The translations under genes were made by a program, and so were the position numbers. Under the pieces are notes generated by a model that made no database searches, had not been told where the DNA came from, and saw nothing but the letters and a program-made list of their open reading frames with translations. Shown here piece after piece: positions 4,489 to 22,636 of a DNA stretch of 22,636 nt; the first letter of the stretch is position 1, and each line of letters begins with the position of its first letter. The DNA lies in IMG/VR virus record IMGVR_UViG_3300032241_000706, positions 1-22,636 of that record; one strand, given 5' to 3'. This stretch comes from a virus.

Positions 4489-4489
4489 A

Positions 4490-4950: not shown

Positions 4951-4968
4951 CAAGGGAAAACCGCCCTT
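4945..4968 (-). terminator. Rho-independent terminator ending the long operon
   Basis: On the minus strand AAGGG-CGGTTTT-CCCTT forms a 5-bp stem and 7-nt loop followed by G and TTTTTT. It overlaps the stop codon of the 86-aa gene and would end the transcript running from the primase gene. Confidence 0.7.
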
Positions 4969-9043: not shown

Positions 9044-9173
9044 GTTGTTCTTCCAATTCTTCTAATTTGGGGATACCATTTTTAAATATAGAATCCCAGT
9101 TTTTGTCAAACTGCTCTTCCGTCACTGTTAATGGGCGCTTAGCGTCCCCTTTACCACCGTCATGTTGTGTCAT
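9003..9173 (-). CDS. Hypothetical acidic protein, 56 aa
   Basis: ATG at 9173 overlaps the TGA of the preceding gene (ATGA). The product MTQHDGGKGDAKRPLTVTEE continues with FDKNWDSIFKNGIPKLEELE and ends SIPFGK. No family recognised. Its 3' end overlaps the possible GTG start of the metallopeptidase-like gene by 41 nt. Confidence 0.6.
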   Translation of the reverse strand: MTQHDGGKGDAKRPLTVTEEQFDKNWDSIFKNGIPKLEELEEQRDEDILKSIPFGK

Positions 9174-9451
9174 TCTTTTGCTTTCTTAATACCAAGGCCT
9201 TCACGTAATTCATGGCTGTGTAGTTTCTTGCCCGGTTTTTTAACTTCACCTGCGGCTTTTGCTATTTTAGCAGCTTTTTCACGATTTGCAAACTTTCCGT
9301 TAGATAGCAAGAATCCGCGTTTGTCTTGATTCTTTTTACGTCCGGCTTTCTTTTCAATTTCTTCGTGTGAATAAGCAGGTGTGTCTTTTAAAATCTTACC
9401 TGACTTTTCTTTTACCGCAGGTTCTACTACTTTAATTTTCTTTGTTGCCAT
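9170..9451 (-). CDS. Small basic phage protein with GFLLSNGKFANREKAAKIA motif
   Basis: The 93-residue Lys-rich product begins MATKKIKVVEPAVKEKSGKI. Around residues 46-64 it has GFLLSNGKFANREKAAKIA, followed by AAGEVKKPGKKLHSHELREG. The layout GFLxSxGxFxxRExAaxIAxxAGxxxxxxxLxSexL is widespread in small phage proteins next to replication genes, but no activity is known to me. It starts 2 nt after PPK2 ends and its stop overlaps the next start. Confidence 0.72.
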   Translation of the reverse strand: MATKKIKVVEPAVKEKSGKILKDTPAYSHEEIEKKAGRKKNQDKRGFLLSNGKFANREKAAKIAKAAGEVKKPGKKLHSHELREGLGIKKAKE

Positions 9452-9453
9452 GT

Positions 9454-10212
9454 TTAAAGCTCCTTTAATATGTTTTGGTCTATTAAACCAATGTTTAATA
9501 AGTCTTTACCTTCGTACTCATTTTTTAATAATACATACTGCATTGATGCTATTCTTGCACTGCGTTTACAATTGCTTTTTACTTGGATCCAGTTTTCTGT
9601 TTCTGCAAACATTTTGTTTTTGGCTTTCGTGTACTCGTCCCATTTGTCTTGGCTGATGAGATCGATTTCACTGAGCTTACCTTGCTTGAGCGGGTGGGTT
9701 TCTCTTTCTTTGAACCTACGGGCTTGCTCTTTTTTGTTGACGCTGTACCAGAATTTGATGAGGTGGATACCAGCTTCTTTCCAAATTCTTTCGAGTCTAC
9801 GAGCTTCCTCAAAGAATCGTTCAATCTCTGATTCGCTTGCAAAGCCAAGGACAGCTTCAACTCCGGCTCTGTTATACCATGAGCGATCCCAAAAAGTGAT
9901 CTCGCCAGCATGTGGGAACTGTGCGATGTAGCGTTGCCAGTACCACTCTTTGCTTTCCAATTCTGTAGGCTTGTTAAGAGCCACCACTCTTGCGCCTCGA
10001 GGGTTAAGGTGTTCCATAAAGCGTTTAATAGCGCCACCTTTACCCGCCGCATCTCGTCCTTCAAAAATAATGATATGTTGTTCATTAGTCGCTTTAACAT
10101 GGTTCTGCCATTTCAATAGTTCAATTTGTAGTAGATACTTCTTTGCCTCATACTCTTTGACGGAAATGAGATTGCGTGGTGTATCTTCAGTCTGGTCTAT
10201 CGTATTGCTCAT
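9454..10212 (-). CDS. ppk2: Polyphosphate kinase 2 (PPK2) family enzyme
   Basis: The 252 residues show the complete PPK2 core. Walker A is FEGRDAAGKGGAIKRF (50-65, K58), followed by LNPRGARVVALNKPTELESK (69-88) and WYWQRYIAQFPHAGEI. Walker B is TFWDRSWYNRAGVEAVLGF (106-124, D109). The lid region is GIHLIKFWYSVNKKEQARRF, then KERETHPLKQGKLSEIDLIS. It fits class I PPK2, which phosphorylates nucleoside diphosphates from polyphosphate to make ATP or GTP, and runs in reverse. Class I enzymes usually read WKLS where this one has GKLS. In a phage this would be an auxiliary metabolic gene feeding NTPs to the class II reductase and primase (inference). It is embedded in the replication operon, overlapping the preceding gene by 26 nt. 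Confidence 0.93.
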   Translation of the reverse strand: MSNTIDQTEDTPRNLISVKEYEAKKYLLQIELLKWQNHVKATNEQHIIIFEGRDAAGKGGAIKRFMEHLNPRGARVVALNKPTELESKEWYWQRYIAQFPHAGEITFWDRSWYNRAGVEAVLGFASESEIERFFEEARRLERIWKEAGIHLIKFWYSVNKKEQARRFKERETHPLKQGKLSEIDLISQDKWDEYTKAKNKMFAETENWIQVKSNCKRSARIASMQYVLLKNEYEGKDLLNIGLIDQNILKEL

Positions 10213-10390
10213 TATTCTTCCATCTATCTACGTGCCATTTACATAGCTCTTTATAATAAGCGATATCAATCTCATATTGAGCGCACTTTTCATCGTATAT
10301 ACGCTGTTGCTCTTTTAAGTCTTTAGTCTGAGGGCGAAATGCGTAACCGATAATCATTCCGATTATCAACGCAAGGAATATGTCAATCAT
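10187..10390 (-). CDS. Small single-pass membrane protein, 67 aa
   Basis: MIDIFLALIIGMIIGYAFRP is an N-terminal transmembrane anchor. A charged stretch likely to be helical follows (LKEQQRIYDEKCAQYEIDIA) and CKWHVDRWKNNEQYDRPD. Shape recalls i-spanins, but no partner o-spanin is visible and the replication context argues against it. The end overlaps PPK2 by 26 nt, so the two are co-translated. Function unknown. Confidence 0.68.
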   Translation of the reverse strand: MIDIFLALIIGMIIGYAFRPQTKDLKEQQRIYDEKCAQYEIDIAYYKELCKWHVDRWKNNEQYDRPD

Positions 10391-10502
10391 TTCTGTGGTA
10401 CCTATCGTGTGGGTGTTTTAACATACTGGCGATGAGTTCATCGGTTGTCCAAAACCACTGGATCACTTTGAGCCCGTCTGCTTGGTAGATGGTGAAGCTC
10501 AT
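10383..10502 (-). CDS. Hypothetical protein, 39 aa
   Basis: ATG at 10502 overlaps the TGA of the upstream gene (ATGA), and the frame ends with TGA overlapping the start of the membrane protein by 8 nt. Product MSFTIYQADGLKVIQWFWTT then DELIASMLKHPHDRYHRND. The tight joins at both ends and the protein-like sequence argue that it is real. No family recognised. Confidence 0.55.
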   Translation of the reverse strand: MSFTIYQADGLKVIQWFWTTDELIASMLKHPHDRYHRND

Positions 10503-10684
10503 TGTTTATTCGCTTGTTTGGCAAACCACCAAGTCCAGCGTCTTTTCTTGGCTACTTGGGCAACTAATTTGTTTATAAATTTGGTTGGATCTTCGCCCAT
10601 ATTTACAAGAGCCATATATTGACCCTGGTTCAACCGAATTGGTTTAATTGCGTCTTGCCCTCTGACTTTCTTGACTTCAATCAT
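10499..10684 (-). CDS. Hypothetical basic protein, 61 aa
   Basis: MIEVKKVRGQDAIKPIRLNQ, then GQYMALVNMGEDPTKFINKL and a basic, Trp-rich end RRWTWWFAKQANKQ. Resembles small DNA-associated phage proteins but no family is recognised. Starts 1 nt after the preceding stop. Confidence 0.65.
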   Translation of the reverse strand: MIEVKKVRGQDAIKPIRLNQGQYMALVNMGEDPTKFINKLVAQVAKKRRWTWWFAKQANKQ

Positions 10685-10685
10685 T

Positions 10686-10862
10686 CTATTCTCCTATTCC
10701 GTGGGCGCGTTCGATGGCGCGGGCGAACGCAACAAAGTACGGATCGTCAGTGCGGTCATAAAACTCATCGCCAAAAATTGATTCAACTTCATTTAATATT
10801 GCCTCAACTGTCAACGGAGTACGTTGCGCATCTTGCCGGTCTTGTGTGGTGAAGGTGGTCAT
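10686..10862 (-). CDS. Hypothetical acidic protein, 58 aa
   Basis: The ATG at 10862 is one base after the primase-helicase stop codon. A longer frame to 10922 would run back through the primase gene and was rejected. Product MTTFTTQDRQDAQRTPLTVE, then ILNEVESIFGDEFYDRTDDP and FVAFARAIERAHGIGE. No family recognised. Confidence 0.62.
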   Translation of the reverse strand: MTTFTTQDRQDAQRTPLTVEAILNEVESIFGDEFYDRTDDPYFVAFARAIERAHGIGE

Positions 10863-10863
10863 G

Positions 10864-13194
10864 TTAAAACACTTCCTCGTTAAATGATTCAATACTTTCG
10901 ACATACTTCTGAGCCTTAGCATTAAGTTTTATGCCTTGGTAGGTGTGTATTCTACCACCGTTTACTCTGCTAAGTCCAGTCTGGATATGGTGCTCTTGAG
11001 TAGCTGCCAAGAAACGACGTTTAAACGCTAACTCGGTGCCTGGCGGTAAAGATTTCTGCAGCGCCCATTTTTTGTAACAGGCAAATACATCGTCCTTAGA
11101 TGCCTCGCCCAGTGGGTCAAACTCTAACGCATCCTCAACGAATGAACCGATTGGATTACCCAGTTCAGCCATCAGTTCGAGCAGTTGTCTGCCGGATTCT
11201 GGTTGGATAAAATATCCCCCGCGGGCTAAGCGGCGCTTGAGTCCTTCCATAGCCCAGTTAAAGATTCCTGCCAGTTCTTTTTCCAGTTTGAATGACAGTT
11301 CTGTGTCCTCTCTGTCGTAGAATGTGTTTGTCATCTTGAGCACTAACATACGACCTGTGAGAGCGTTGGAGTTCTCAGTTAGTTGTAATACCTCGTTAGA
11401 ATAAACCACAATACGGGTAGGAAGATAGCCACTCCAAGCCTCTTTATTCTTTCTATTGACAGTGACGGTGTCACCACCCACAATCCTGAGAAGTTGAGAT
11501 ACAACAGCACTCCGATTGCGTTCAGGAGCTCGTGCATCTGTGAAAGAAGCCAAAAGTTTACCCAGCCAAGGCTGTAAGCCAAAAGTATCACAGAGTTCCT
11601 CCAGTTGTGGTGCGACCGTGTTGTGTTGTCCTAACAACGACACCAAGATCTTGTTGATGGTTCCCTTACCTGAGCGGCGGGGTCCGATAATGTTAAAGAA
11701 TTTTTGTTGGCGAGTATCGCCCGACAGAATGTAACCGAACATCTCTTGCAATGCTTCGATAGACTGCGGGTCTTTGTCCCATACAGAGTTTAAAAAAGTA
11801 AGCCATGTTGGGCACTGTGCTTGGGGATCATACACGAACGGTAATGAGTTCTGAGTAAAGAAACCCAATGAGTGCGGAATCATTACATAGTCTTTGAGAT
11901 GAAAGATGCCGTTACGCAGGGAAACAAGATCGGAAGCAGCCGGCTGGTCAGCGGCATATTGCTCAAGCCAGATAGGTGGCTTAGTGTTAGGATGGTTCGG
12001 CAAATGAGTAATTGATTTGACTGCGTCAAGTGCGGCAGATACACTAGCGGGAGAAGGGTTGAAATTTTCAAGCGCACCCTTTCTTCCCGTTTTCTTGCAT
12101 TTATCCAAAAAAGCATAGAGCTTGGATCGGATAGTTGCTTCTTCAATAATTTCATAGTGTGTCCTAACGTAGATATAAAAGTCATCTGCATAGTGAACCA
12201 TGGTGTAGCCTTCTTCAGATGAGAAGAGGTTATCAAGGAATACACGGGCATGGTTCATCGGTCCGGCATCTAAAATGATTTCGCCACGGGATAATGCTTC
12301 TTGTTTGGTTTGGATGTTTACTTTAAAAATAAGCGAACGTAGTGTGGCAGTTGAGCCGCTGTCCCGTTTAAACGTGTTCCATTTATGATGGCATGACATT
12401 TCACCGCTTGCTTGGTACTCAGGTGATGCTCCGTCATTGTATGACCAGCGATCCCATAACTCACACGCTTCGGGGTCACCTCTGAACTGATGGTGCAGTG
12501 CATACCCCACAGCCATCCAATCTGCGTATCCACAGTTGGTCGATGGTAGGTGAGCTAAAATTTCCGTTTCGACACGGGCTAAGTCATAGTCTGAGACGGG
12601 AGGTTTGTAGTCTGCAAAGTCGTCGCCTGTGATGTGGACGGTGCGGTCTGGGATGATGGCTGATAGGTCTTGCTCTTGGGTGGGTATAGAACCACTTATA
12701 AGGGCTCCAGTGACCGTAAAGTACCTACCATGGGGGTATGCCTCAAATCCGATGGAGTGGTCTACATGGGCTGTTTTAAGGCTTCCGCGGGTAAATATCT
12801 TAACACCTGTCCCTGATGGGCTGACCTCCATGTAGCCGTCAATTGATGTAGCAATATGCTGCATTGCAGCATTTGTGAAACTGGACAGTGTGGCATCATA
12901 GCAGTCATCCAAATCGACACCGATGAGGTTGTCATCTTCACTGAAGACAAAACCGACGCCACTAAAGCGGTTTGAGTTGGACTGATAGGCAGCTTGGACA
13001 GTTAAAAAGTCTGCCCATGTTGCTGGATTGGTGGATGAGGCTGATTGTCCGTTTGCCTGTACGGGGAGTTTAGACCAGCGCTTATTACCTTCTGGTCCGA
13101 CTTCTGTGTGACTCCAAAGAACCCAGCGTGGGATTCTCTTTAAATCCATGGGGATATTTTCAAATATTACTGGCAGTGATGCTGGTTTTGACAT
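10864..13194 (-). CDS. Primase-polymerase / superfamily 3 (D5-like) DNA helicase
   Basis: The 776 residues fall into three parts. An archaeo-eukaryotic primase-like N-terminus has NLIGVDLDDCYD (89-100, D94/D96), EVSPSGTGVKIF (123-134) and GRYFTVTG (156-163). About 205-290 is a PriCT-2-like linker (YADWMAVGYALHHQFRGDPE ... LWDRWS ... KWNTF). A D5-type SF3 helicase has Walker A FNIIGPRRSGKGTINKIL (500-517), FTDARAPERNRS and YSNEVLQL (motif C region with Asn). This layout matches phage primase-helicases, and NrS-1-like relatives can also polymerise DNA. Expected role: origin opening, primer synthesis and fork unwinding. It is the first gene downstream of the origin-like dyad, with an AGGAAAGG purine-rich site before the ATG. 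GTTTAAAC occurs twice within it (11029, 12366). Confidence 0.92.
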   Translation of the reverse strand: MSKPASLPVIFENIPMDLKRIPRWVLWSHTEVGPEGNKRWSKLPVQANGQSASSTNPATWADFLTVQAAYQSNSNRFSGVGFVFSEDDNLIGVDLDDCYDATLSSFTNAAMQHIATSIDGYMEVSPSGTGVKIFTRGSLKTAHVDHSIGFEAYPHGRYFTVTGALISGSIPTQEQDLSAIIPDRTVHITGDDFADYKPPVSDYDLARVETEILAHLPSTNCGYADWMAVGYALHHQFRGDPEACELWDRWSYNDGASPEYQASGEMSCHHKWNTFKRDSGSTATLRSLIFKVNIQTKQEALSRGEIILDAGPMNHARVFLDNLFSSEEGYTMVHYADDFYIYVRTHYEIIEEATIRSKLYAFLDKCKKTGRKGALENFNPSPASVSAALDAVKSITHLPNHPNTKPPIWLEQYAADQPAASDLVSLRNGIFHLKDYVMIPHSLGFFTQNSLPFVYDPQAQCPTWLTFLNSVWDKDPQSIEALQEMFGYILSGDTRQQKFFNIIGPRRSGKGTINKILVSLLGQHNTVAPQLEELCDTFGLQPWLGKLLASFTDARAPERNRSAVVSQLLRIVGGDTVTVNRKNKEAWSGYLPTRIVVYSNEVLQLTENSNALTGRMLVLKMTNTFYDREDTELSFKLEKELAGIFNWAMEGLKRRLARGGYFIQPESGRQLLELMAELGNPIGSFVEDALEFDPLGEASKDDVFACYKKWALQKSLPPGTELAFKRRFLAATQEHHIQTGLSRVNGGRIHTYQGIKLNAKAQKYVESIESFNEEVF

Positions 13195-13283: not shown

Positions 13284-13406
13284 GATTGTCAGGGTTGTCA
13301 TAGTAGTACCCCTTATTTCTTCTTTTTTCTTTTTTCTTAATTTAAAAAAAATAAAATAAAGAAAAGAGTCAAAGTAAGGGTGACTACTGTGACTACTGTG
13401 ACAATT
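13284..13406. repeat. Long imperfect dyad around an AT-rich core, candidate replication origin
   Basis: Arm 13284-13315 and the reverse complement of arm 13375-13406 match at 25 of 32 positions. The right arm contains the tandem 9-mer GTGACTACT twice plus GTGACAATT, and the left arm contains TTGTCA twice. Between them, 13316-13374 is mostly a T/C run followed by an A/G run, which can extend the dyad. Iteron-like repeats, an easily melted core and position directly before the primase-helicase gene are what a phage origin looks like. A regulatory or hairpin-forming role is the alternative. Confidence 0.5.
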
Positions 13407-14024: not shown

Positions 14025-14341
14025 TACAGCTCCTTAATTTTGCTTGGTTTTTCATCCCAGTTATCGGCGGGTGTGCCATAATCTCCACGACTAGAACGCA
14101 ATCTCTCGTCATGCCTAAATCGTGGTTCAACTTCTAGCCAATGTTTAAACGCTTCCACATACTCTACATACTCATCATTAACTACATAAAGCGGGTGGTT
14201 TAAACCTGTTACATCAACTGTGTGAGAGATTTCAGAGGCGCGCACCCACTTTTTATTGCGCTTGTAAACTCTGTCCCGCGCCATAACATAGCGGTTATAT
14301 GCCCTAGTTTGCTCGGGTGTTAGTTCAATCATCTTGCTCAT
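14024..14341 (-). CDS. Hypothetical protein, 105 aa
   Basis: MSKMIELTPEQTRAYNRYVM begins an N-terminal helix rich in Arg/Lys, followed by an acidic/aromatic segment YVEYVEAFKHWLEVEPRFRH. No family recognised. It overlaps the 3' end of the sigma gene by 17 nt (an internal ATG at 14332 would shorten this), so it is likely co-expressed with sigma. Contains two GTTTAAAC sites (14143 and 14198). Confidence 0.7.
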   Translation of the reverse strand: MSKMIELTPEQTRAYNRYVMARDRVYKRNKKWVRASEISHTVDVTGLNHPLYVVNDEYVEYVEAFKHWLEVEPRFRHDERLRSSRGDYGTPADNWDEKPSKIKEL

Positions 14342-14894
14342 CTGCTACTCTTTCGGTGTTTAAATGGTCTATTGAGATCGGCTCTCTTGCCGTATAGGAC
14401 TGCAACTGCGCTAACTTGCGCTCAGTAATGTTCATAATCTTGGCTAGTTCTGCGGGCTTGGGTTTGCGCCCTAGAATTTGGGAAAGCACCCGTTCGTTGT
14501 AGTTCAGCTTTTTGAGGGCTTCAACTACATTCATTGGCAAACGGATGATATTAGATAGGTTGTCCAGTTCTCTGCGAACACCCTTTTCAATAAAAGACTT
14601 GGCATAGGTGGCAAACTTGGCATTGTTTTTAGGTTTCCACTTCTTAGCGCACATCAGCAACTGCTCGTTGCCAATACTAATAATGTCCTCAACTGGCATC
14701 TTGCCATGATTCCAGTATGTCATCTTACGCACGATATAAACGACAAAGCGCAAGTTATGAGTAACTAGGCGGTCTAATGCCTCGTCATCACCTTGCGCTA
14801 TTTTGTGAGCAAGTTCATGCTCTTGCTCTGTTGATAGGGGTTCAATCCCATATAGGGATTGTAGGTAATCTGATAGTATGTCTTGGTCGATCAT
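14325..14894 (-). CDS. Sigma-70-family factor lacking region 4
   Basis: The 189 residues show region 1.2 (ILSDYLQSLYGIEPLSTEQE, 6-25), region 2.1 (LVTHNLRFVVYIVRKM, 43-58), 2.2 (MPVEDIISIGNEQLLMCAKK, 66-85), 2.3-2.4 (FATYAKSFIEKGVRREL, 94-110) and region 3 (NIIRLPMNVVEALKKLN; KPAELAKIMNITERKLAQLQ). It stops in the region 3.2 linker (REPISIDHL), with no region 4. Region 2 binds the core enzyme and melts a -10 element; without region 4 it would read extended -10 promoters or need a partner, possibly the region 4-like product at 6372-6674. The gene sits behind its own TATAAT and an inverted repeat directly before the ATG, so autoregulation is likely. Confidence 0.9.
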   Translation of the reverse strand: MIDQDILSDYLQSLYGIEPLSTEQEHELAHKIAQGDDEALDRLVTHNLRFVVYIVRKMTYWNHGKMPVEDIISIGNEQLLMCAKKWKPKNNAKFATYAKSFIEKGVRRELDNLSNIIRLPMNVVEALKKLNYNERVLSQILGRKPKPAELAKIMNITERKLAQLQSYTAREPISIDHLNTERVADEQDD

Positions 14895-14922
14895 CGGGGT
14901 TCAATTTGTGGTTTGAACCCCG
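14895..14922. promoter_or_regulatory. Operator-like perfect inverted repeat at the sigma start codon
   Basis: CGGGGTTCAA (14895-14904) and TTGAACCCCG (14913-14922) flank an 8-nt spacer. The repeat fills the gap between the -10 box and the ATG exactly, and no separate Shine-Dalgarno is visible. It could be a repressor operator over the transcription start, or a hairpin at the mRNA 5' end that limits sigma translation. Confidence 0.75.
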
Positions 14923-14928
14923 ATTATA
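14923..14928 (-). promoter_or_regulatory. -10 box (TATAAT) of the sigma gene
   Basis: A perfect TATAAT on the minus strand lies 28 nt before the ATG. At 17-nt spacing upstream I see no good -35 hexamer, so activation may rely on another factor. It lies just after the stop of the small GTG-started membrane gene. Confidence 0.6.
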
Positions 14929-14942
14929 CCACATTGTGAAAT

Positions 14943-15080
14943 CTATGCCCTATTATGGTGCTTAAATAGGTTGTATAGATATAAAAGTAATAAAAGCCAC
15001 CATGCTTTACACAATAGCCACCATAAACTACTAAAAAGCAAAACTGGTAGGTATAAAAACCCAGTTAATATTTCACTCAC
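14943..15080 (-). CDS. Small Trp/Leu-rich membrane protein, 45 aa, GTG start
   Basis: A GTG at 15080, overlapping the ATGTGA end of the upstream gene, opens 45 codons ending in TAG. The product reads MSEILTGFLYLPVLLFSSLW, then WLLCKAWWLLLLLYLYNLFK and ends HHNRA, so almost the whole chain is hydrophobic: one long or two short transmembrane segments and a basic end. The overlap and composition support it. Function unknown. Confidence 0.5.
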   Translation of the reverse strand: MSEILTGFLYLPVLLFSSLWWLLCKAWWLLLLLYLYNLFKHHNRA

Positions 15081-15223
15081 ATTATCGCCTCTCCAAGTAG
15101 TTTAAACACATCCAGAAATGTTAATTTCTTGATCCTCTTTCGTTTCGGTTCTTGCCATACAACTGCGCCGAAATCGTCATACTTAGTTTTCGTCGCTGCC
15201 GATAAATGTTTCGTCGCTGCCAT
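15077..15223 (-). CDS. Hypothetical basic protein, 48 aa
   Basis: ATG at 15223 lies within the 3' end of the preceding small gene (41-nt overlap). Product MAATKHLSAATKTKYDDFGA, then VVWQEPKRKRIKKLTFLDVF and KLLGEAIM. A tandem-like AATKxLSAATK occurs at the N-terminus. A GTTTAAAC site (15100) encodes V-F-K here. No family recognised. Confidence 0.5.
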   Translation of the reverse strand: MAATKHLSAATKTKYDDFGAVVWQEPKRKRIKKLTFLDVFKLLGEAIM

Positions 15224-15332
15224 CTAAACTTAACTCCTCCATAATTTTAAGTTTATACATATGGCACTTAGTATCCTCATACTCCTCATCAAAATTATCC
15301 ATGTTTTCGTCTTTAAAATAATCCCTATTCAT
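15183..15332 (-). CDS. Hypothetical acidic protein, 49 aa
   Basis: ATG at 15332 overlaps the stop of the KEVADI paralog upstream (ATGA). MNRDYFKDENMDNFDEEYED is strongly acidic, followed by TKCHMYKLKIMEELSLDGSD and ETFIGSDEN. No family recognised; highly acidic short phage proteins can be DNA mimics, but nothing specific shows that here. Confidence 0.55.
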   Translation of the reverse strand: MNRDYFKDENMDNFDEEYEDTKCHMYKLKIMEELSLDGSDETFIGSDEN

Positions 15333-15538
15333 GTTTTTAAACTCCTTACAATGTCAGCTACTTCTTTGGTTATGCGAGTGATTTTATTACTGTGTGCTAA
15401 ACCTGTATAAACACCTCCTTCTTTAGATAGCCATGTAACCTCAAAACTGCGTGGTGGAAACTCATCAAAATTTATCCAATCAGGTAGAGATGTAACCCCC
15501 ACCATCCCCCGTTCATTCATAATGTATGTTTTCGTCAT
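15329..15538 (-). CDS. Small KEVADI-tail protein, paralog 3 (69 aa)
   Basis: MTKTYIMNERGMVGVTSLPD, then FDEFPPRSFEVTWLSKEGGV and the tail ITRITKEVADIVRSLKT. Strand-rich body plus the shared helical tail. The start follows a GTTTAAAC junction directly (GGAGTGTTTAAACATG), which also ends the gene before it. Function unknown. Confidence 0.7.
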   Translation of the reverse strand: MTKTYIMNERGMVGVTSLPDWINFDEFPPRSFEVTWLSKEGGVYTGLAHSNKITRITKEVADIVRSLKT

Positions 15539-15540
15539 GT

Positions 15541-15720
15541 TTAAACACTCCTCATTATATCAGCTACTTCTTTAGATATCACCTTTACCTCATTGGTTGG
15601 GACAATCAATCTTCGCATAATGCCTACCCCACCATCGACATTGACTTGGCAATACATCCCACCAATCTGCCATAACTGCCCGACTTCGTTATTGGTCATA
15701 ACCCAATCGTTAATGTTCAT
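15541..15720 (-). CDS. Small KEVADI-tail protein, paralog 4 (59 aa)
   Basis: ATG at 15720 overlaps the end of the 273-codon gene (ATGA). The product MNINDWVMTNNEVGQLWQIG has the same DWV-type opening as paralog 2, and ends VKVISKEVADIMRSV with the TAA inside GTTTAAAC. Arranged back-to-back with paralog 3, suggesting tandem duplication. Confidence 0.68.
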   Translation of the reverse strand: MNINDWVMTNNEVGQLWQIGGMYCQVNVDGGVGIMRRLIVPTNEVKVISKEVADIMRSV

Positions 15721-16538
15721 GTCATCACCCAGTATGCGGTTTTGTTTTCTTTGCGCCCTACATCCTCAATAAACTGCTTCTCATCGGAGATATCTAACAC
15801 AAACATTTTACCTCGAATTTGCTCGGGTAGGTCGTTTAAACTAGCTACTCGCTTTGATACATTTTCACCCCTAGTGATAAACTCCACACAATTTGGTTTC
15901 AGCCATACAAAATAGTATTGCGGATCGTAATTAGAATACTTATCAATGTTGGCTCGGTTCTCATACAAATACTCCATCGCATTTTTAAACTTCGGACTGC
16001 GTGGTTCATAGCCGATACTTTTAAGGTGAATCATATCTTCATACGCTACTTTAAAAGCATCATCTGTTTTGCGGTTTACTTCCCAACTCCATTTAGTGCG
16101 AATTGAGTTTATGTTCTGTTCAAAATCTCGTTTGCACCCATCCATTACTTGTAGGATGTTTAGTGGCTTTAATGTTTTCTTAGCAATATTGATAATGTTT
16201 TTTGCGTGTTTAGATTCCTTTGTTTCACCCTCTCCCCTACCATATCGCCTCCTACCATCGGGGATGTTGCGATTAGTAATGAAGTATTTGTCGTTGTATC
16301 TGTCAATACCCAACACACCAATGCGGTTGTTTGGATCATCTTCAAAGTAAACATCAAGGGATTGTGTAACACCAACTGGCTTACATTCCTCGGGTATGTT
16401 GTATGTATATAATTCACCCTGTTTAAACTGCACCTCGGGGATTGCTTTTTGTATATCGTTTGCTATTGCTATGAGTTTGGCATCTACCCACTTGCAATCA
16501 GCAAAGGGTTCGTATTTTCGTGTTAATTCGGTTGTCAT
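15717..16538 (-). CDS. Hypothetical protein, 273 aa
   Basis: The ATG at 16538 has AAGGAG at good spacing; a longer frame from 16589 would begin inside the preceding gene. Sequence: MTTELTRKYEPFADCKWVDA, a middle with charged GRRRYGRGEGETKESKHAKN, then a helical region and VASLNDLPEQIRGKMFVLDI near the end. No catalytic motif recognised. It follows the 322-codon gene and the VWA gene on one transcript, so it may be part of the MoxR/VWA group. Two GTTTAAAC sites lie inside, in different frames. Confidence 0.7.
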   Translation of the reverse strand: MTTELTRKYEPFADCKWVDAKLIAIANDIQKAIPEVQFKQGELYTYNIPEECKPVGVTQSLDVYFEDDPNNRIGVLGIDRYNDKYFITNRNIPDGRRRYGRGEGETKESKHAKNIINIAKKTLKPLNILQVMDGCKRDFEQNINSIRTKWSWEVNRKTDDAFKVAYEDMIHLKSIGYEPRSPKFKNAMEYLYENRANIDKYSNYDPQYYFVWLKPNCVEFITRGENVSKRVASLNDLPEQIRGKMFVLDISDEKQFIEDVGRKENKTAYWVMT

Positions 16539-16548
16539 TGTGTTCTCC

Positions 16549-17517
16549 TTAAAACCAAGATTTGAAACGATCTTTACATGGCTCGCCAAGTGGCACTTCG
16601 ACTGCTTTCAATGGCTTGACCAGTTTGTATAAATCTTTGTAAAGATAGTGTTTGAGTTTGTCTTTGCGGTAGATTGTTTTCCTATCCTCAATCCGATAAG
16701 ACCCGCACCAATCGTGTGCTTCGATGCGCTTCTTATAATACTCAGCCATTTTGAACCAATGCTCGGGTGCTTCGCCATCATCTTGTTTAAACACCTTGTC
16801 TTTAGCTATGTCTTGGGTTGCTTCGGCTAATACATTCTGCCACCATCCAATGTATTGTGGCTCTACCATATCCACCATGACATTTAAGTAATCGAGTAAT
16901 GGCTTGGCAGTGTTGCGCCATTCTTTAGTTTTCTCTCTATCTAATAGGTGGATTACCTCACGATGGACTACCATTGGTTTCCAATACTTTTCACCAACTC
17001 TGCGGGTAAATGTCGTATCTCCCTTTTCTACTGTGTAATATAGATACCCTTGCTCCGTATCTAAACGAACATACTTTGCCGACTTGTAGTTCACCATGTT
17101 TAAACCGATTGGTAAATTGAAATCGTAAAAGTAAAAGACGGATGGACTACTAAATGCTCGGGGGTATAAATTCTTTTCCTCTTTCCAATTCGTGCGGGGT
17201 GTATGCACGACAACTGTTTCCATATCCCCTACTAAATGGAATGAGATTGCCTTAGTGTGTTGTCTATCGGGTTGGTGTATCTCTGACCATCTCCACGCAT
17301 CAAAGGTGAGATAGTATTCATTGTCATTAACTTTGACAATCCTCTCATGGCTTCTACCCCGTTCACCATTGGGTCGTATATCAAGGTGTTTGCGTTTCTT
17401 ACCTTGAATTGGCTTGGTGTTCTCATAGCGTTCCTTAATTTTGTCGAATGTATATCTTCCTCCGTTATCCCGTTGGACTTCGTAAGGTGTGCGAATGTTG
17501 TAATGTCCAAAACTCAT
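16549..17517 (-). CDS. Hypothetical protein, 322 aa
   Basis: MSFGHYNIRTPYEVQRDNGG opens a protein rich in Tyr, Trp and Lys/Arg, with RIVKVNDNEYYLTFDAWRWS early, KPMVVHREVIHLLDREKTKE in the middle and basic YRKDKLKHYLYKDLYKLVKP near the end. Not recognised. It starts immediately after the VWA stop codon, with GAGGAGAG upstream, so expression is coupled to the HEXXH/VWA protein. Two GTTTAAAC sites fall within it, encoding V-F-K and G-L-N in different frames. Confidence 0.72.
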   Translation of the reverse strand: MSFGHYNIRTPYEVQRDNGGRYTFDKIKERYENTKPIQGKKRKHLDIRPNGERGRSHERIVKVNDNEYYLTFDAWRWSEIHQPDRQHTKAISFHLVGDMETVVVHTPRTNWKEEKNLYPRAFSSPSVFYFYDFNLPIGLNMVNYKSAKYVRLDTEQGYLYYTVEKGDTTFTRRVGEKYWKPMVVHREVIHLLDREKTKEWRNTAKPLLDYLNVMVDMVEPQYIGWWQNVLAEATQDIAKDKVFKQDDGEAPEHWFKMAEYYKKRIEAHDWCGSYRIEDRKTIYRKDKLKHYLYKDLYKLVKPLKAVEVPLGEPCKDRFKSWF

Positions 17518-18696
17518 TTATCTCTCCTCATCAATATGAATGGTTACTCCGTTGGGTGCGTTGGTTTGGCGGTTATCCACAATGCACCATAAAACGGGAC
17601 TGTTCCAATTCCCGCCCCAATCGTTTCCTACATAGCCATCTGTGAGCACAATGGAGCACATTGGTTGTATGTTGTGCTTGGTCATGTATTTGGTAATGCA
17701 AGATGGACTTGTGCCTCCACCCCCTTTCGGTTGGGTTGATGCCCTCATCTTATCTGCTTCACCTGAACCATAAACCTCATGCCCCGCTACTTTACTGTCC
17801 CAGTAAATCAAATCCACTTGCTCGGGTGATACATTCTCCATAATGCTACTCACCTCAGATAAAAACCGATTGAGAATTGCACCTTGAATACTGCCTGATG
17901 TATCAATGGCTACTACCATGCGCCCTACTGATTCGCTGATAGTAGAGGGCATATAAATGTCATGTTGTAACCATCTGCGGTTTGGTTTGCGCCATGTTGA
18001 ATCGTCTTTGCCTTTGCATACATCCGATACAAATTCACGGAGAGCATCTTTCCAATTCACCTTTGCTGACATCAAATCATCAAACGATCTGTTTAAACTA
18101 CCTCCCACTTTACCCGCTAAGATTGCACCTTGACGAATGGCTTGGTCAATCTCTTTGGCTAAATCATCAATCTCCTCTTGGGTCATGTCCTCTGCGCCAT
18201 CCCAATCGTGCTCATCAAATCCAGTTTGACCTGAACCTCCACCTATACCCGAACCTCCCTCATCATCAGGTAAAAGGGCAAACACTTGCCCGCTATCCAT
18301 GCCCTTAAACTTCGGGTCATATAGCCCGCCTTTGGGTAGGGTAATGAACTTGTTTGATCTTTCGCACTCCTCAATGATCTCTGCGTTAATTACATAATCA
18401 CAGGCACGATTGGCTTTGTCGTGGTTGATTTTGGATAGGTGCTTCCATGTTAGTAAGTGCCTATACATTTTGTGTTTTGCTTCATGGATAATCACACCTC
18501 GCAAATCGGTGTCGTTTAAACTCTCTACAAACTTGCGCCCGTAGTGAACATTTTTACCATTGGTTAATGCGGTTAAAATGTTGTCCTTTACTTTGACATC
18601 GCCAATCATCAAGATGCCTGAATAGGCTACAAAATACGGGGACTTCATTAAATCAATATGCGCCCGTTCAATGCGTTGCTCTGCGGTTAGTGCCAT
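17518..18696 (-). CDS. HEXXH metallopeptidase-like plus VWA-domain protein (DUF2201-like)
   Basis: In the 392 residues an N-terminal metallopeptidase-like domain has GVIIHEAKHKMYRHLLTW (68-85, HEAKH 71-75) and ANRACDYVINAEI (95-107). A Gly/Asp/Glu-rich linker covers 144-175. The C-terminal VWA domain has MVVAIDTSGSI (260-270, MIDAS DTSGS), GGGGTSPS (325-332) and LTDGYVG (351-357), completing a metal-ion-dependent adhesion site. This is the VWA-like/putative metallopeptidase family that normally pairs with a MoxR AAA+ ATPase, here 1 kb upstream. Such pairs act as chaperone or remodelling machines; the phage target is unknown. Its ATG directly follows a GTTTAAAC junction with GGGGAGAA before it. 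Confidence 0.88.
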   Translation of the reverse strand: MALTAEQRIERAHIDLMKSPYFVAYSGILMIGDVKVKDNILTALTNGKNVHYGRKFVESLNDTDLRGVIIHEAKHKMYRHLLTWKHLSKINHDKANRACDYVINAEIIEECERSNKFITLPKGGLYDPKFKGMDSGQVFALLPDDEGGSGIGGGSGQTGFDEHDWDGAEDMTQEEIDDLAKEIDQAIRQGAILAGKVGGSLNRSFDDLMSAKVNWKDALREFVSDVCKGKDDSTWRKPNRRWLQHDIYMPSTISESVGRMVVAIDTSGSIQGAILNRFLSEVSSIMENVSPEQVDLIYWDSKVAGHEVYGSGEADKMRASTQPKGGGGTSPSCITKYMTKHNIQPMCSIVLTDGYVGNDWGGNWNSPVLWCIVDNRQTNAPNGVTIHIDEER

Positions 18697-18698
18697 GT

Positions 18699-18875
18699 TT
18701 AAACTTCTCCCCTTTGAAAGAGTTTGATTGCGTGTAGTGGGTCGGTAGCCATCATGGTAATTGTTTTAGGTTGCCATGTTGAATCTACCAACTTCTCAAA
18801 ACTAACTTCGTGCTTAACATATTCGTCAATGCTGACCATATCAATGCACCTTGCCATTATGTTTTTTGTTTCCAT
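18699..18875 (-). CDS. Hypothetical protein, 58 aa
   Basis: ATG at 18875 comes 3 nt after the preceding stop. Product METKNIMARCIDMVSIDEYV, then KHEVSFEKLVDSTWQPKTIT and MMATDPLHAIKLFQRGEV, with its TAA inside a GTTTAAAC junction that also carries the VWA gene start. No family recognised; mixed alpha/beta. Confidence 0.62.
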   Translation of the reverse strand: METKNIMARCIDMVSIDEYVKHEVSFEKLVDSTWQPKTITMMATDPLHAIKLFQRGEV

Positions 18876-18878
18876 GAT

Positions 18879-19031
18879 TTATTCCTCATCATCTTGGGTT
18901 AGTCGTTCTGCCATACCACGAATAAAATCTTCGGGTAAATACCTCATAAGTAAATCTACAAGGTAGGCGGTTTCAGAATCATAAAAATATCCAACAACTG
19001 CTTCCCTTTGTCGGTCAGTTAATCTCAACAT
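18879..19031 (-). CDS. Hypothetical protein, 50 aa
   Basis: ATG at 19031 overlaps the upstream gene by 17 nt. Product MLRLTDRQREAVVGYFYDSE, then TAYLVDLLMRYLPEDFIRGM and an acidic tail. Predicted to be all-helical. No family recognised. Confidence 0.6.
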   Translation of the reverse strand: MLRLTDRQREAVVGYFYDSETAYLVDLLMRYLPEDFIRGMAERLTQDDEE

Positions 19032-19248
19032 AGTTTTCCTCATAGGTTAGATATTGTTTAAACACTTTAGGCTTTTGACCGAATACATAAAACAATGGAT
19101 TAGTTTCCTTTATGATCTCCCGCTTTTCTGCGGGGGTCGTAGCTAACTTCATGCGTTCAAAAATAGATTGCATACGGGCTTCCTCAATCTTACTGCTCGC
19201 CCGCTTTTTAAGACTATATGGATAGTGTTTGATCATGTCGGTTCGCAT
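19015..19248 (-). CDS. Hypothetical basic protein, 77 aa
   Basis: MRTDMIKHYPYSLKKRASSK begins a helical, basic protein, with EARMQSIFERMKLATTPAEK and a C-terminal NPLFYVFGQKPKVFKQYL stretch. Start at 19248 has GGGGAT upstream; the alternative ATG at 19236 would give an ATGA overlap with the gene before. Contains GTTTAAAC (19056). No family recognised. Confidence 0.65.
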   Translation of the reverse strand: MRTDMIKHYPYSLKKRASSKIEEARMQSIFERMKLATTPAEKREIIKETNPLFYVFGQKPKVFKQYLTYEENYVEIN

Positions 19249-19430
19249 TGTTTTATCCCCACTTTATCGCCATTCTTATAAATCTCTGCTTTCCCATCGG
19301 CTACAAGCATTAGCCCTACTTGGAAAAGTAACAGGGTTCTATGCGCCCGAGTAGCAATATGTTTAAACACTATGGCTAAGACTGTGGCAATCGTAGCCCA
19401 TGCCATTAAAAACAATTCACTTGTTTGCAT
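19233..19430 (-). CDS. Small single-pass membrane protein, 65 aa
   Basis: MQTSELFLMAWATIATVLAI followed by VFKHIATRAHRTLLLFQVGL: one clear transmembrane helix (about 6-22) and a second hydrophobic stretch (33-43), then a soluble tail. The start lies 1 nt after a GTTTAAAC junction with GAGGAG ahead. Function unknown. Confidence 0.67.
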   Translation of the reverse strand: MQTSELFLMAWATIATVLAIVFKHIATRAHRTLLLFQVGLMLVADGKAEIYKNGDKVGIKQCEPT

Positions 19431-19433
19431 TGT

Positions 19434-19634
19434 TTAAACCTCCTCACTAAAATTGTAATCGTCAGGGTCGCAACTGCGTAGGTCGTTCAACTCGTCTAAA
19501 TATTGCTCAATCTGTTCTCTTAAATACTCGGGCAAATCGTTGGATAAATCCTCCCTTTTGCCATCGTTCCAAGTAATAATGATTTTGCAATCAGTAATAG
19601 CTAGGTCAAATTTACTGTGTGGGTCAAGTATCAT
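19434..19634 (-). CDS. Hypothetical acidic protein, 66 aa
   Basis: The ATG at 19634, 3 nt after the GTTTAAAC junction with GGGAG upstream, is preferred; a longer frame to 19682 lies within the MoxR gene. Product MILDPHSKFDLAITDCKIII, then WNDGKREDLSNDLPEYLREQ and an acidic tail ending FSEEV, with TAA inside the next junction. No family recognised. Confidence 0.68.
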   Translation of the reverse strand: MILDPHSKFDLAITDCKIIITWNDGKREDLSNDLPEYLREQIEQYLDELNDLRSCDPDDYNFSEEV

Positions 19635-19639
19635 AGTGT

Positions 19640-20716
19640 TTAAACTCCCTGTGCGAATAGATAATTGTTTGCGGTAGCCCATTTAATAAAACCCTGATTC
19701 GTGCCTACTGTGGTTTTCTTACTGGTTCGCATAATGGCGGTAGCAAATAGCCCTTGCGCCTCTTTGGACAGTCGTTCGCAATACTTCATCCACTTGCTGA
19801 TATCTTCCTTTTCTAGTCGTTGGATTGCGCTATAAACAAGCATACAAACGGCACTCGGGGATTTTGGAACAGGGGCTTTATCGGGTGAATCCATGATCAA
19901 ATCCCAGTCGGGTAATTCGCTATTTAACTGGATGATTGAAAGCATATCGTAAGTGGCTCGGTTTCCAATCGTGCCTTTTAATGCGTGTGCCATGATGTTT
20001 AAACTCAATCCCTTAGACTTCTTAATAATGTCGGATGCTTTTTGCATACTGCGTGGGGTGCAAAATGCGGGGCGGGGTGTGCGTGGGTCGTAAATGTATT
20101 CATTGTCCGATGCCTTGTCAAAATCCTCAAAACTTGCAAGCATTTGCGGGAATTGCTTTACAGTCAGGAGCACCTCGGGGGCTATGTTGTTTTCTAATGC
20201 CCATTCAATCCACTCATCTGCGGAGGGTTTGCGGACTTTTACAACAGAGATACGATTACGGGCATGGGGTGGCAAATTGTCCCCTATGGCTTCGTTAGCT
20301 AAGTTTGTAGTGGCGAATACTATTGACCCCTCGGGTAATGAGTAAGTGCCTAGTTTTCTCTCTAACATCAATCTAAGACAAGCGTTCATAACTGCCTTTG
20401 ATGCCTTGCCGATCTCATCCAACATTAAAATAATCGGCTTCTCAAAATGGAATCCGAACTCCTCATTCGGTATAAAAGAGCAAACCTCTACCCCGTTTAA
20501 ACTGCGTATTTTTGGGACTAGAAAATCGCCTACATCCTTAGTAGTCATGTCCCCGTAGCATACAAAATGGTCGGGGAATTTGGCTTGTAACATTTTGAGC
20601 ATGGATGACTTTCCGATACCCATTTCGCCTTGTGCTAATACTGTAACTGTATCGCCAACAGTAGCGATAAGGTCGGCGCACTCTGATAGTGAAACTGCTT
20701 TGTATAAATCTGACAT
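19640..20716 (-). CDS. MoxR-like AAA+ ATPase
   Basis: In the 358 residues: Walker A GEMGIGKSS (30-38), a loop region with GDMTTKDVGDFLVPKI (55-70), Walker B ILMLDEIGK (96-104), sensor-1 ATTN (135-138) and NLPPHARNRI (147-156, arginine finger zone). C-terminal half is helical lid plus extension (RPAFCTPRSMQKASDIIKKS). MoxR-family AAA+ proteins hydrolyse ATP to remodel partner proteins, normally one with a VWA domain such as the HEXXH/VWA gene here; RavA-ViaA is the best-known pair. N4-like phages also carry an adjacent AAA/VWA pair. The ATG has AAAGGAG and a GTTTAAAC junction before it, and its TAA lies in the next one. Two further GTTTAAAC are internal. Confidence 0.9.
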   Translation of the reverse strand: MSDLYKAVSLSECADLIATVGDTVTVLAQGEMGIGKSSMLKMLQAKFPDHFVCYGDMTTKDVGDFLVPKIRSLNGVEVCSFIPNEEFGFHFEKPIILMLDEIGKASKAVMNACLRLMLERKLGTYSLPEGSIVFATTNLANEAIGDNLPPHARNRISVVKVRKPSADEWIEWALENNIAPEVLLTVKQFPQMLASFEDFDKASDNEYIYDPRTPRPAFCTPRSMQKASDIIKKSKGLSLNIMAHALKGTIGNRATYDMLSIIQLNSELPDWDLIMDSPDKAPVPKSPSAVCMLVYSAIQRLEKEDISKWMKYCERLSKEAQGLFATAIMRTSKKTTVGTNQGFIKWATANNYLFAQGV

Positions 20717-20721
20717 GGTGT

Positions 20722-20931
20722 TTAAACTCCTTTTTGGTTAATGTAAATACTATCTAATAAATCTTGAACTGCTTTATCTAATGGTTCGATACTACTTGGC
20801 AATACCCATCTAACATGAACTTTTTGATCTTCGTTTATGTATTCTATCAATGTGCGATTATTCTTATGGTGGGTTGCACCTGTGCGCCCTATATAATCGC
20901 CATATTTAACCCATATACCCCGATCCATCAT
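20722..20931 (-). CDS. Small SH3-like hypothetical protein, 69 aa
   Basis: MMDRGIWVKYGDYIGRTGAT has a WV-x-YGD opening similar to KOW/SH3-like small proteins, followed by IEYINEDQKVHVRWVLPSSI and a helix IEPLDKAVQDLLDSI. The layout (small barrel plus C-terminal helix) echoes the KEVADI group. A start at the second Met (20928) is equally possible. TAA inside a GTTTAAAC junction. Confidence 0.65.
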   Translation of the reverse strand: MMDRGIWVKYGDYIGRTGATHHKNNRTLIEYINEDQKVHVRWVLPSSIEPLDKAVQDLLDSIYINQKGV

Positions 20932-21015
20932 TTAACCCCAATACTCAGGGGCAAAACAAAAAACAATAAATAAACCTATAAGTAATAAGGTGCAATAAAA
21001 ATCGTCTTTAGTCAT
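20932..21015 (-). CDS. Tiny membrane peptide, 27 aa
   Basis: ATG at 21015 overlaps the upstream TGA (ATGA) and the TAA is followed directly by the ATG of the next gene. MTKDDFYCTLLLIGLFIVFC then FAPEYWG: a single hydrophobic helix with a charged N-terminus. Exact joins at both ends support it; it is too short to place in a family. Confidence 0.45.
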   Translation of the reverse strand: MTKDDFYCTLLLIGLFIVFCFAPEYWG

Positions 21016-21086
21016 AGCGTTGTGCCTAGTAATAATATCAGAATAATTAGGATTGCAATAGCTAACCCATTGAAAAGATTGGACAT
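21012..21086 (-). CDS. Tiny membrane peptide, 24 aa
   Basis: ATG at 21086, one base after a GTTTAAAC junction with GGGGAG ahead, encodes MSNLFNGLAIAILIILILLL then GTTL and TGA. It is nearly all hydrophobic, a single transmembrane helix. The strong ribosome site and the coupled second peptide support real translation. Confidence 0.45.
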   Translation of the reverse strand: MSNLFNGLAIAILIILILLLGTTL

Positions 21087-21089
21087 TGT

Positions 21090-21275
21090 TTAAACACTCC
21101 CCGCAATATGTAGCCCGTAATTGGCTAGAGTTTTAATGGCTAACTTATCGCCCATCAATGCGCCCTGAACGATTCCCCGCACCCTATGGACTTGGTTGTC
21201 CCCTATCCAGTTTGCAAGGTGGTTGATTGCAACACCTTGCGGGATTGGTCGATTATTAAGATAAAATTGCGTCAT
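21090..21275 (-). CDS. Hypothetical protein, 61 aa
   Basis: MTQFYLNNRPIPQGVAINHL, then ANWIGDNQVHRVRGIVQGAL and MGDKLAIKTLANYGLHIAGS. Compact alpha/beta appearance. No family recognised. Both ends are in GTTTAAAC junctions with GGGAG-type ribosome sites. Confidence 0.66.
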   Translation of the reverse strand: MTQFYLNNRPIPQGVAINHLANWIGDNQVHRVRGIVQGALMGDKLAIKTLANYGLHIAGSV

Positions 21276-21277
21276 GT

Positions 21278-21520
21278 TTAAACACTCCCTAAATATTCGT
21301 CAAAAAACTCTTGGGGCTTTTCCTCGGCTTGGACTCCATCTAGCCATTTATTGATGTGGCGGGATGTAGTCTTGCTCCAATACTTAGCGGTGCGGTAGTA
21401 GTCGTGCTTGTGCTTGTCATAGACTGCTACGGGTGTAGAGTATGAGAAAAGCACAAGGGCTTGGGGGGTTTGCAATAAGGTCATATTGCTTGCTAGTGGT
21501 TGGACTTGTAAATTTTGCAT
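21278..21520 (-). CDS. Conserved phage protein, 80 aa
   Basis: MQNLQVQPLASNMTLLQTPQ, then ALVLFSYSTPVAVYDKHKHD and YYRTAKYWSKTTSRHINKWL. The LFSYxTPVA...Y.RTAKYWSxTTSRHINKWL arrangement is one I recall in many phage small proteins, without a known function. AAGGAG precedes the ATG, and its TAA is inside a GTTTAAAC junction. Confidence 0.7.
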   Translation of the reverse strand: MQNLQVQPLASNMTLLQTPQALVLFSYSTPVAVYDKHKHDYYRTAKYWSKTTSRHINKWLDGVQAEEKPQEFFDEYLGSV

Positions 21521-21534
21521 GGTGTTGTTTCTCC

Positions 21535-21861
21535 TTAATAATGAACCTTGATATTGTCATCTTCTAAACTACTGCAATAGTCGTTAAACCCGCACTCATA
21601 TGCTATCGGGTCGAGTTCTTTTAATGCTCGGCTTGGGTCGTATTCATACCCGCACACATTAACAGGCGGGTAGCAATCATCTAACATCGAATCATAGCGT
21701 GAACGGGCTTCGTATTCCTCTAAATACTCTACCTCGCTTGGCTCATCTTCCTCGGCTTCATCTTCCTCTAATTCCTCGGCTTGGTGTTTTGGGAATCGTG
21801 CCTTGATATAGGCTTCTAGGGCTTCGCCTGTTAGCTCGACAGTTTGATATTTGTTTGACAT
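21535..21861 (-). CDS. Hypothetical acidic protein, 108 aa
   Basis: MSNKYQTVELTGEALEAYIK, then a strongly acidic linker (ELEEDEAEEDEPSEVEYLEE) and a conserved-looking end DDCYPPVNVCGYEYDPSRAL, KELDPIAYECGFNDYCSSL. The final segment, PSxxLKELDPIAYxxGFNDY, resembles the end of many small phage proteins. Several cysteines could bind metal. AAAGGAAT before the start. Function unknown. Confidence 0.68.
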   Translation of the reverse strand: MSNKYQTVELTGEALEAYIKARFPKHQAEELEEDEAEEDEPSEVEYLEEYEARSRYDSMLDDCYPPVNVCGYEYDPSRALKELDPIAYECGFNDYCSSLEDDNIKVHY

Positions 21862-21895
21862 AGCGTCTATTCCTTTGCGGTTAGTGTTTGTTTGT

Positions 21896-21921
21896 AATGC
21901 CCCCTTATTATCGGGGGCATT
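21896..21921. repeat. 9-bp inverted repeat, hairpin between two small genes
   Basis: AATGCCCCC and GGGGGCATT are perfect arms around an 8-nt loop (TTATTATC). On the plus strand GTTTTGG follows, on the minus strand ACAAAC, so it lacks a T run in the direction of the genes. Possible transcript-processing or pausing hairpin. Confidence 0.6.
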
Positions 21922-21948
21922 GTTTTGGTTTGGTATTAGTGATAACCC

Positions 21949-22074
21949 TTATTTTGTTTTTACTTGGTTAATTATGGTCATGCCCGCTAAGTATTTGGCG
22001 AACTCTCTCGCTTGTTTTAAAGTTTTAAATTCGTAAACTTTGGCGGGGGTTTTAATGGTGTATTTGATAGTCAT
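21949..22074 (-). CDS. Hypothetical basic protein, 41 aa
   Basis: ATG at 22074 has AAAGGAAA upstream. MTIKYTIKTPAKVYEFKTLK, then QAREFAKYLAGMTIINQVKT, ends in K. Strand-strand-helix layout with a basic tail. Sits between two hairpins (21896-21921 and 22106-22125). No family recognised. Confidence 0.6.
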   Translation of the reverse strand: MTIKYTIKTPAKVYEFKTLKQAREFAKYLAGMTIINQVKTK

Positions 22075-22105
22075 GGTTTAATTTCCTTTGGTAGTGTTTA
22101 AACAT

Positions 22106-22125
22106 GGCGGGGGTTTGCCCCCGCC
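22106..22125. terminator. Strong GC hairpin after the SprT-like gene
   Basis: GGCGGGGG and CCCCCGCC form a perfect 8-bp stem around a 4-nt loop, 10 nt after the stop of the SprT-like gene. On the minus strand it is followed by ATGTTTAAAC, so a GTTTAAAC site (22096) sits where a T run would be. Termination is possible but not certain. Confidence 0.55.
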
Positions 22126-22134
22126 TGTGTTGGT

Positions 22135-22636
22135 TTAGCCTAGATTCATTGAGTAGCCCATGTTATTACATTCGTCATTGGGGCAAGTAGGCATGGCGAT
22201 ATCTAACCATTTGCGTGATGTATATACCTGATAATCACATTCAAGGCACACGCACTTAATCATTCGGGTTGATTGCTTTTTGATGTTGGATTGTGTAAGG
22301 GGTGCGTGTGGATATTCGCCCGATTCAGCAATCCATATATTGATTTGATCCACTAAATCAGGGCTTGCGGTTGTGGATGTCATTTTGCCCTCTAAACCAA
22401 CAGAGAGGGCGCATTGTTTAAACTCTTTGCCATGACCCGCTTGTAATCCTACTGTGGCGTGAATCAACTCATGGATTAAAATTGCTATCACCTCATTAGA
22501 ATCCGCAATTTTCGGGGCGATAAATATTTCGAAAGTGTTATCCTCACTTGCGATACTCGACCAACATTCGCCTATGTGTTTCTTGCGTGATGTCAGAGAG
22601 CAACTCATTCTGACATTTTGGGGGATTGTGTAGCCC
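22135..22636 (-). CDS. SprT-like zinc metalloprotein, 5' end cut by window edge
   Basis: The frame stays open to the right edge before the first ATG (22608) with protein-like codons GYTIPQNVR, and the family usually begins earlier, so the start lies outside the window. Numbered from that ATG: KKHIGECWSS (9-18), EIFIAPKI (27-34), ILIHELIHATVGLQAGHG (43-60, HELIH at 46-50 plus H59), GLEGKMTST (71-79), and a C-terminal zinc ribbon (C121, C124, C142, C147). This matches phage SprT-like proteins, related to Spartan proteases that clear DNA-protein crosslinks. The phage substrate is unknown. A GTTTAAAC site (22416) encodes part of KEFKQC. Confidence 0.85.
   Translation of the reverse strand, partial: GYTIPQNVRMSCSLTSRKKHIGECWSSIASEDNTFEIFIAPKIADSNEVIAILIHELIHATVGLQAGHGKEFKQCALSVGLEGKMTSTTASPDLVDQINIWIAESGEYPHAPLTQSNIKKQSTRMIKCVCLECDYQVYTSRKWLDIAMPTCPNDECNNMGYSMNLG

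Follow-up and report, generated by a model that had tools for sequence, protein, structure and literature searches.

In cluster A mycobacteriophages, stoperators lie in one orientation and are used together with the L5 repressor. These sites are 13 bp long and have a role in transcription (PMC3203893). Cluster K mycobacteriophages have start-associated sequences (SAS/ESAS), which lie a few base pairs before start codons and are confined to the genome's non-structural half (PMC3203893). In cyanobacteria, the HIP1 word (GCGATCGC) tracks methyltransferases (PMC4390886). A link to DNA is also known for the metalloprotease SPRTN (PMC5127644).

The virus record analysed here (hereafter the window, i.e. 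the whole stretch of 22,636 bp) iterates the word GTTTAAAC. It resembles the stoperator/L5 repressor system in having many short sites and one putative phage regulator encoded beside them, with proposed promoter control and transcription block. By contrast, the window word is a strict 8-bp palindrome that also lies inside genes, its proposed partner is a zinc-ribbon SprT-like protein, and a one-orientation asymmetric site is absent (GTTTAAAC is a palindrome and GTGTAAAC is found in both orientations). Like SAS/ESAS, the word is a short sequence repeated shortly before start codons; however, SAS are 13 bp, non-palindromic, contain the Shine–Dalgarno sequence, are almost never intragenic and have no protein assigned, whereas the 8-bp palindrome lies between Shine–Dalgarno and ATG and within genes too. 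With HIP1 it shares the form of a highly iterated, strict octamer palindrome that other words replace in some lineages, but unlike chromosomal HIP1 it is viral, block-restricted in the clade studied here and tracks a zinc ribbon. The SprT-like protein resembles SprT/SPRTN metalloproteases in combining an HExxH domain with a zinc-binding region, and differs in that some phage members have lost the protease. Our literature search, which covered few subscription journals, found nothing on the word or its SprT link, nor a description of sequence-specific binding of an iterated viral word by SprT/SPRTN. As far as we found, this pairing of word and protein, seen in dozens of phages that are not otherwise related, is apparently undescribed.

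A strict DNA word in the early block

The window is from an uncultured virus with genes for ribonucleotide reductase, an exonuclease, an SNF2 helicase, a primase, a sigma factor, a DUF2201/VWA protein, an AAA ATPase and the SprT-like protein; megablast against phages and plasmids gave no match. The sequence-only reading had counted 27 copies of GTTTAAAC in the window and 20 within 15100–22423, with an expectation below one. Both counts are exact, and order 1–2 Markov models give 0.7 expected copies (1.7 at order 3 and 3.9 at order 4). No 8-mer in the window, palindromic or not, is as frequent as this word, and the runner-up 8-bp palindrome has 3 copies. That reading had also stated that a Markov model of order 5–6 explaining the count would refute it. 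Such models do give 8.3 (order 5) and 20.2 (order 6) against 27, but they near the observed number because their input sub-words are mostly made of GTTTAAAC itself (sub-word TGTTTAAA has 22 copies), and the comparison therefore does not validly refute the excess.

A dense block with 22 copies spans 14143..22423 (no strand assigned), at 14143, 14198, 15100, 15539, 15834, 16421, 16785, 17098, 18091, 18514, 18697, 19056, 19361, 19432, 19638, 19997, 20495, 20720, 21088, 21276, 22096 and 22416, with a mean gap of 394 bp and a coefficient of variation (CV) of 0.62 (random 0.94). Sparse copies outside the block (736..12373, no strand assigned) lie at 736, 1506, 4038, 11019 and 12366. Minus-strand genes of the block include two of unassigned function (15717..16589, with copies at 15834 and 16421, and 16549..17517, with copies at 16785 and 17098), the DUF2201 metallopeptidase/VWA protein (17518..18696, with copies at 18091 and 18514) and an AAA/MoxR-like ATPase (PHROG 1297; 19640..20716) with two internal copies.

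We fetched 160 related loci from IMG/VR using the AAA and primase proteins. Their GTTTAAAC counts are bimodal, with 7–40 copies per locus in one clade and 0–2 in the others. In 12 larger relatives one early block (5–11 kb each) is filled with the word (282 copies in 102 kb, 3.9 expected), while the same contigs hold 51 copies in 413 kb outside it (14.5 expected). This 72-fold enrichment in the block versus 3.5-fold outside differs from the genome-wide spread of HIP1. By the sequence-only reading, relatives that lack the word at homologous positions, with no excess elsewhere, would count against it; in these relatives the excess is present in the same block, whereas 14 GTTTAAAC-poor relatives have 19 copies in 816 kb versus 24 expected. 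Mean gaps within the relatives' blocks are 270–510 bp and gap CVs are 0.43–0.72 versus ∼0.94 for random placement, i.e. spacing is more even than chance. Exact GTTTAAAC is enriched 71-fold (337 copies) and the best one-mismatch neighbour 1.9-fold, so the word is a strict 8-mer.

Selection acts on the DNA word and not on a protein motif, as the sequence-only reading had claimed. Copies within genes split 171:172 between two possible coding frames, the third being unused because it contains TAA (genes were called with a simple script), and synonymous codon shuffling of block genes from 15 sequences gives a mean of 19.9 copies and a maximum of 32 versus 188 observed. Residues are altered so that the word is held: in a codon alignment of the VWA protein, column 344 reads GLND or GLNE with the word versus GSGE or GQGD, and column 234 reads SLNR with the word (the 18091 copy of the window) versus NIDR. 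Other phages carry the word at the same alignment spot in a different reading frame.

Several further repeats and proteins were seen around these blocks. Arrays of 9-bp iterons in divergent orientations lie near word-block edges in L015 (6829–7129 and 16979–17164), L037 (5747–5935 and 17398–17589) and the window, with the units ACCCTGACA, AGTCGGACA and GTGACTACT; in the window a small array of GTGACTACT lies just outside the block (13380..13402, no strand assigned). Nine GTTTAAAC-free relatives (L046, L043, L044, L052, L059, L063, L032, L033 and L080) have clade-specific 15–18 bp dyads (e.g. TTCGGGACwGTCCCGAA, TCGTTACnnGTAACGA, TTTCATACsGTATGAAA and TTTTAGACsGTCTAAAA) in 5–11 copies in the same early block around the AAA gene, and a ribbon-helix-helix-like protein of the L046 clade may be their partner. 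Phages with GTTTAAAC in the L012-type clade have a primase/sigma side that belongs to one lineage and an AAA block that belongs to another; their GTTTAAAC-free relatives have one or the other. Four small window proteins (13418–13612, 13609–13830, 15329–15538 and 15541–15720) have a common C-terminal tail like ITKEVADIMRSL and may be paralogues or bear a shared tag. In L171 (12685–13629) and its relatives, a protein of 314–332 aa precedes the large terminase; it has no Pfam match, and we presume that its sequence resembles Hint/homing domains.

Co-occurrence of the word with an SprT-like zinc ribbon

The SprT-like gene of the window (PHROG 6361; 22135..22635, minus strand), the proposed source of the GTTTAAAC binder, is truncated at its 5′ end, where the contig stops. 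Its product matches phrog_6361 (E = 2.8e-40) and Pfam SprT-like (E = 2.5e-7, above the cutoff), and contains an HExxH zinc-protease motif in the SprT-like domain (HELIH; 22459..22473, minus strand), which is lost in some word-rich relatives, and a C-terminal KKQSTR...C..C...C zinc ribbon (22147..22281, minus strand), the proposed DNA-recognition part. A Foldseek search of its AlphaFold2 model (pLDDT 85) against PDB gave no significant match, the best being weak metallopeptidases.

Within the clade, two families track GTTTAAAC, i.e. the SprT-like protein and an 80-aa block protein (21278–21520) that has no match in a Pfam search and presumably resembles DUF8033. Scanning IMG/VR by DNA patterns alone, so that contigs were chosen on the word and not on a protein, found many unrelated phages (26–56% GC, 1–4 word copies per kb), and the family common to unrelated word-iterating phages is SprT-like. 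It is the commonest family in iterating loci outside the clade (52 loci versus 31 for the next). Of 48 whole contigs, 15 have 16 copies or more, and 14 of these encode the SprT-like protein; among the 33 with fewer copies, one does (Fisher 4.5e-10, at a cut-off set after the counts were seen). Throughout, counts from phages of the same genus are non-independent, and many records are fragmentary. No SprT-like protein or ribbon is detectable in the 40 kb contig G032, yet it has 24 copies of GTTTAAAC.

Other candidate readers of the word were rejected: the 80-aa protein does not track it in unrelated word-rich phages, the RHH protein of some clade members is not universal, and the phage sigma factor (14325–14894) is present in many word-free relatives. 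The latter is sigma-70-like in the window, with regions 1.2, 2 and 3; region 4 was not detected.

Two of the 14 SprT-positive, word-rich contigs encode the C-terminal ribbon only, as a protein of 55–57 aa without the protease domain (G036 and G039), and contigs with such stand-alone ribbons hold 42 and 25 word copies. The word-rich L366 and L376 have lost HExxH and kept the ribbon. Both observations map the function to the ribbon. An apparent loss of the ribbon in L288 is a frameshift, and the ribbon is intact in L366.

The word and the intact ribbon co-occur in the opposite search direction too, and this co-occurrence depends on ribbon integrity. Among 59 loci chosen by protein only, 54 have KQxTR, and GTKTAAAC is present at least once in 53 of these and enriched at least 4-fold in 43; the 5 loci without KQxTR have zero GTTTAAAC and one GTGTAAAC in total. 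All 22 cultured phages with an intact KQ[STG]TR ribbon, from 26 analysed, iterate GTTTAAAC or GTGTAAAC. In the other 4 (Quenya, Dismas, Armstrong and CN2) the ribbon is decayed and neither word is iterated, the only copy being one GTGTAAAC in CN2. Copies of GTTTAAAC number 16 in Pan1, 17 in R5C, 20 in R26L, 34 in Venkman and 4–8 each in ep3, PT1, Arya, KA2-1, Mano, Persinger and Alexa, and 11 actinophages have 14–41 copies of GTGTAAAC. Iteration is found even at 62–70% GC, where ∼0.01–0.05 copies are expected; for the jilinviruses and relatives, with merely 4–8 copies and a weak genome-wide excess, the case rests on position. A code in which S/T versus G in KQxTR sets T versus G at base 3 was rejected, as Zeta1847 (KQSTR) and DrManhattan (KQTTR) use GTGTAAAC. 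In Bordetella phage CN2 (L497), which has a cysteine-poor ribbon and no iterated GTKTAAAC, AAGTAAAC occurs five times (0.06 expected) and is possibly an altered word.

Inheritance of the word from the host, another suggestion of the sequence-only reading, is not supported. In a MAG holding such phages the word is not iterated outside the phage contigs, and SuMoo and Percival (with the word) share the host strain Microbacterium foliorum NRRL B-24224 with Quenya, Dismas and Armstrong (without it), so phages of one strain split by their ribbon.

Positions at promoters and start codons

Across 119 sprT starts, the 150 nt upstream contain 43 copies of GTTTAAAC (0.48 expected) and 14 of GTGTAAAC (0.53 expected), with at most 3 of any other one-mismatch variant. 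Upstream of sprT, ep3, PT1, Arya and KA2-1 have a TATAAT-like −10, 8 nt, GTTTAAAC, 18–20 nt and ATG, in that order. Several jilinviruses have TATAAT-N8-GTTTAAAC, and in Arthrobacter phages GTTTACAC comes immediately after the −10 TTAGACT. An sprT-promoter site is placed by position in jilinviruses, Persinger, Alexa and Arthrobacter phages. Four SuMoo promoters have the word at the same position between −35 and −10; of the 16 sites in this phage, 9 lie in intergenic DNA, which makes up 8.5% of the genome. More broadly, the word lies within 100 nt upstream of sprT in 14 of 51 word-rich phages (∼6 expected), and many have no such site. This promoter geometry is what a repressor would show that acts at its own promoter and at others.

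In the window clade, words before start codons are not at recognisable promoters. With genes called by the same script, and start positions hence approximate, GTTTAAAC lies within 30 nt upstream of the start in 89 of 264 block genes (34%) versus 3 of 429 gene starts outside the blocks, and at 70 of the 264 block starts it lies exactly 0, 1 or 3 nt before ATG, i.e. it forms the spacer after the Shine–Dalgarno sequence. The window has this arrangement as AGGAGT-GTTTAAAC-ATG at 15539..15546 (no strand assigned), with further spacer copies at 18697, 19432, 19638, 20720 and 21276. About 60% of copies are intragenic.

Proposed role and alternatives

We consider it likely that GTKTAAAC (GTTTAAAC here) is the recognition site of the SprT-like zinc ribbon, and that the protein regulates itself and most likely silences the early block. 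The C-terminal ribbon (KQ[STG]TR...CxxC...CPxC) would recognize GTKTAAAC as DNA, and the truncated gene at 22135–22635 would encode the binder of the window. We infer this contact with high confidence; a binding site for a phage protein was one option of the sequence-only reading. Silencing of transcription through GTKTAAAC operators is less certain than binding. The protein would regulate its own promoter, where the site appears to overlap the transcription start in several genera, and ∼20–35 further sites would line the early operon of the clade, in Shine–Dalgarno/start-codon gaps and inside genes. Bound protein would then most likely repress rather than activate, silencing the early block by obstructing promoters and elongating RNA polymerase in a stoperator-like manner. 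A bolder picture is speculative and, taken as a whole, rather doubtful: SprT-ribbon proteins might be DNA-binding phage proteins of a widespread and as yet undescribed class that mark early genes with a strict octamer, a protease tethered at these sites clearing or cleaving proteins there, and the ribbon alone sufficing and sometimes outliving the protease.

Alternatively, the sites may be landing places, not operators, for a DNA-tethered protease that strips host silencers, defence enzymes or stalled polymerase. HExxH is present in most members, the protease SPRTN is DNA-dependent (PMC5127644) and the sites are evenly spread (∼300–450 bp), but the loss of HExxH or of the whole protease domain in word-rich phages, together with a promoter geometry that favours an operator, makes this unlikely. 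It is distinctly unlikely that another factor, of host or phage, binds the word and sprT is merely one of its targets. Such a factor would suit the position of the word at the sprT promoter and its iteration in G032; however, ribbon integrity predicts the word both ways, stand-alone ribbons retain it, phages of one M. foliorum strain differ by ribbon, and word-rich phages share no other family so often.

A signal at the RNA level, for translation or for the decay of mRNA, comparable to start-associated sequences or early-mRNA nuclease targets, agrees with the clustering of words just before block starts but is very improbable given the intragenic majority of copies. Moreover, nearly all genes of Yang point in one direction, yet its copies of the asymmetric GTGTAAAC lie in both orientations (6 and 14), and promoter-spacer copies upstream of the expected transcription start would escape transcription. 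A protective modification site like HIP1, as the sequence-only reading had offered, would suit a strict palindrome and the methyltransferase link of HIP1 (PMC4390886), but is the least credible, as no methyltransferase is seen to track the word (none was seen in the window, and some word-bearing phages have one annotated while others, e.g. SuMoo, do not), most copies in the clade lie in one early block and GTGTAAAC is not palindromic.

Recognition of GTKTAAAC by the SprT-like ribbon would give PHROG 6361, a common phage family represented by 173 records of cultured phages in the collection that was searched, often with no annotation beyond SprT-like protease, a testable putative function, i.e. 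sequence-specific DNA binding. It supplies an exact candidate binding site and a 55-residue minimal protein, and cultured phages of Arthrobacter, Microbacterium, Streptomyces and E. coli permit direct tests. It also presents a viral DNA word strong enough to alter the amino acids of the genes that it occupies.
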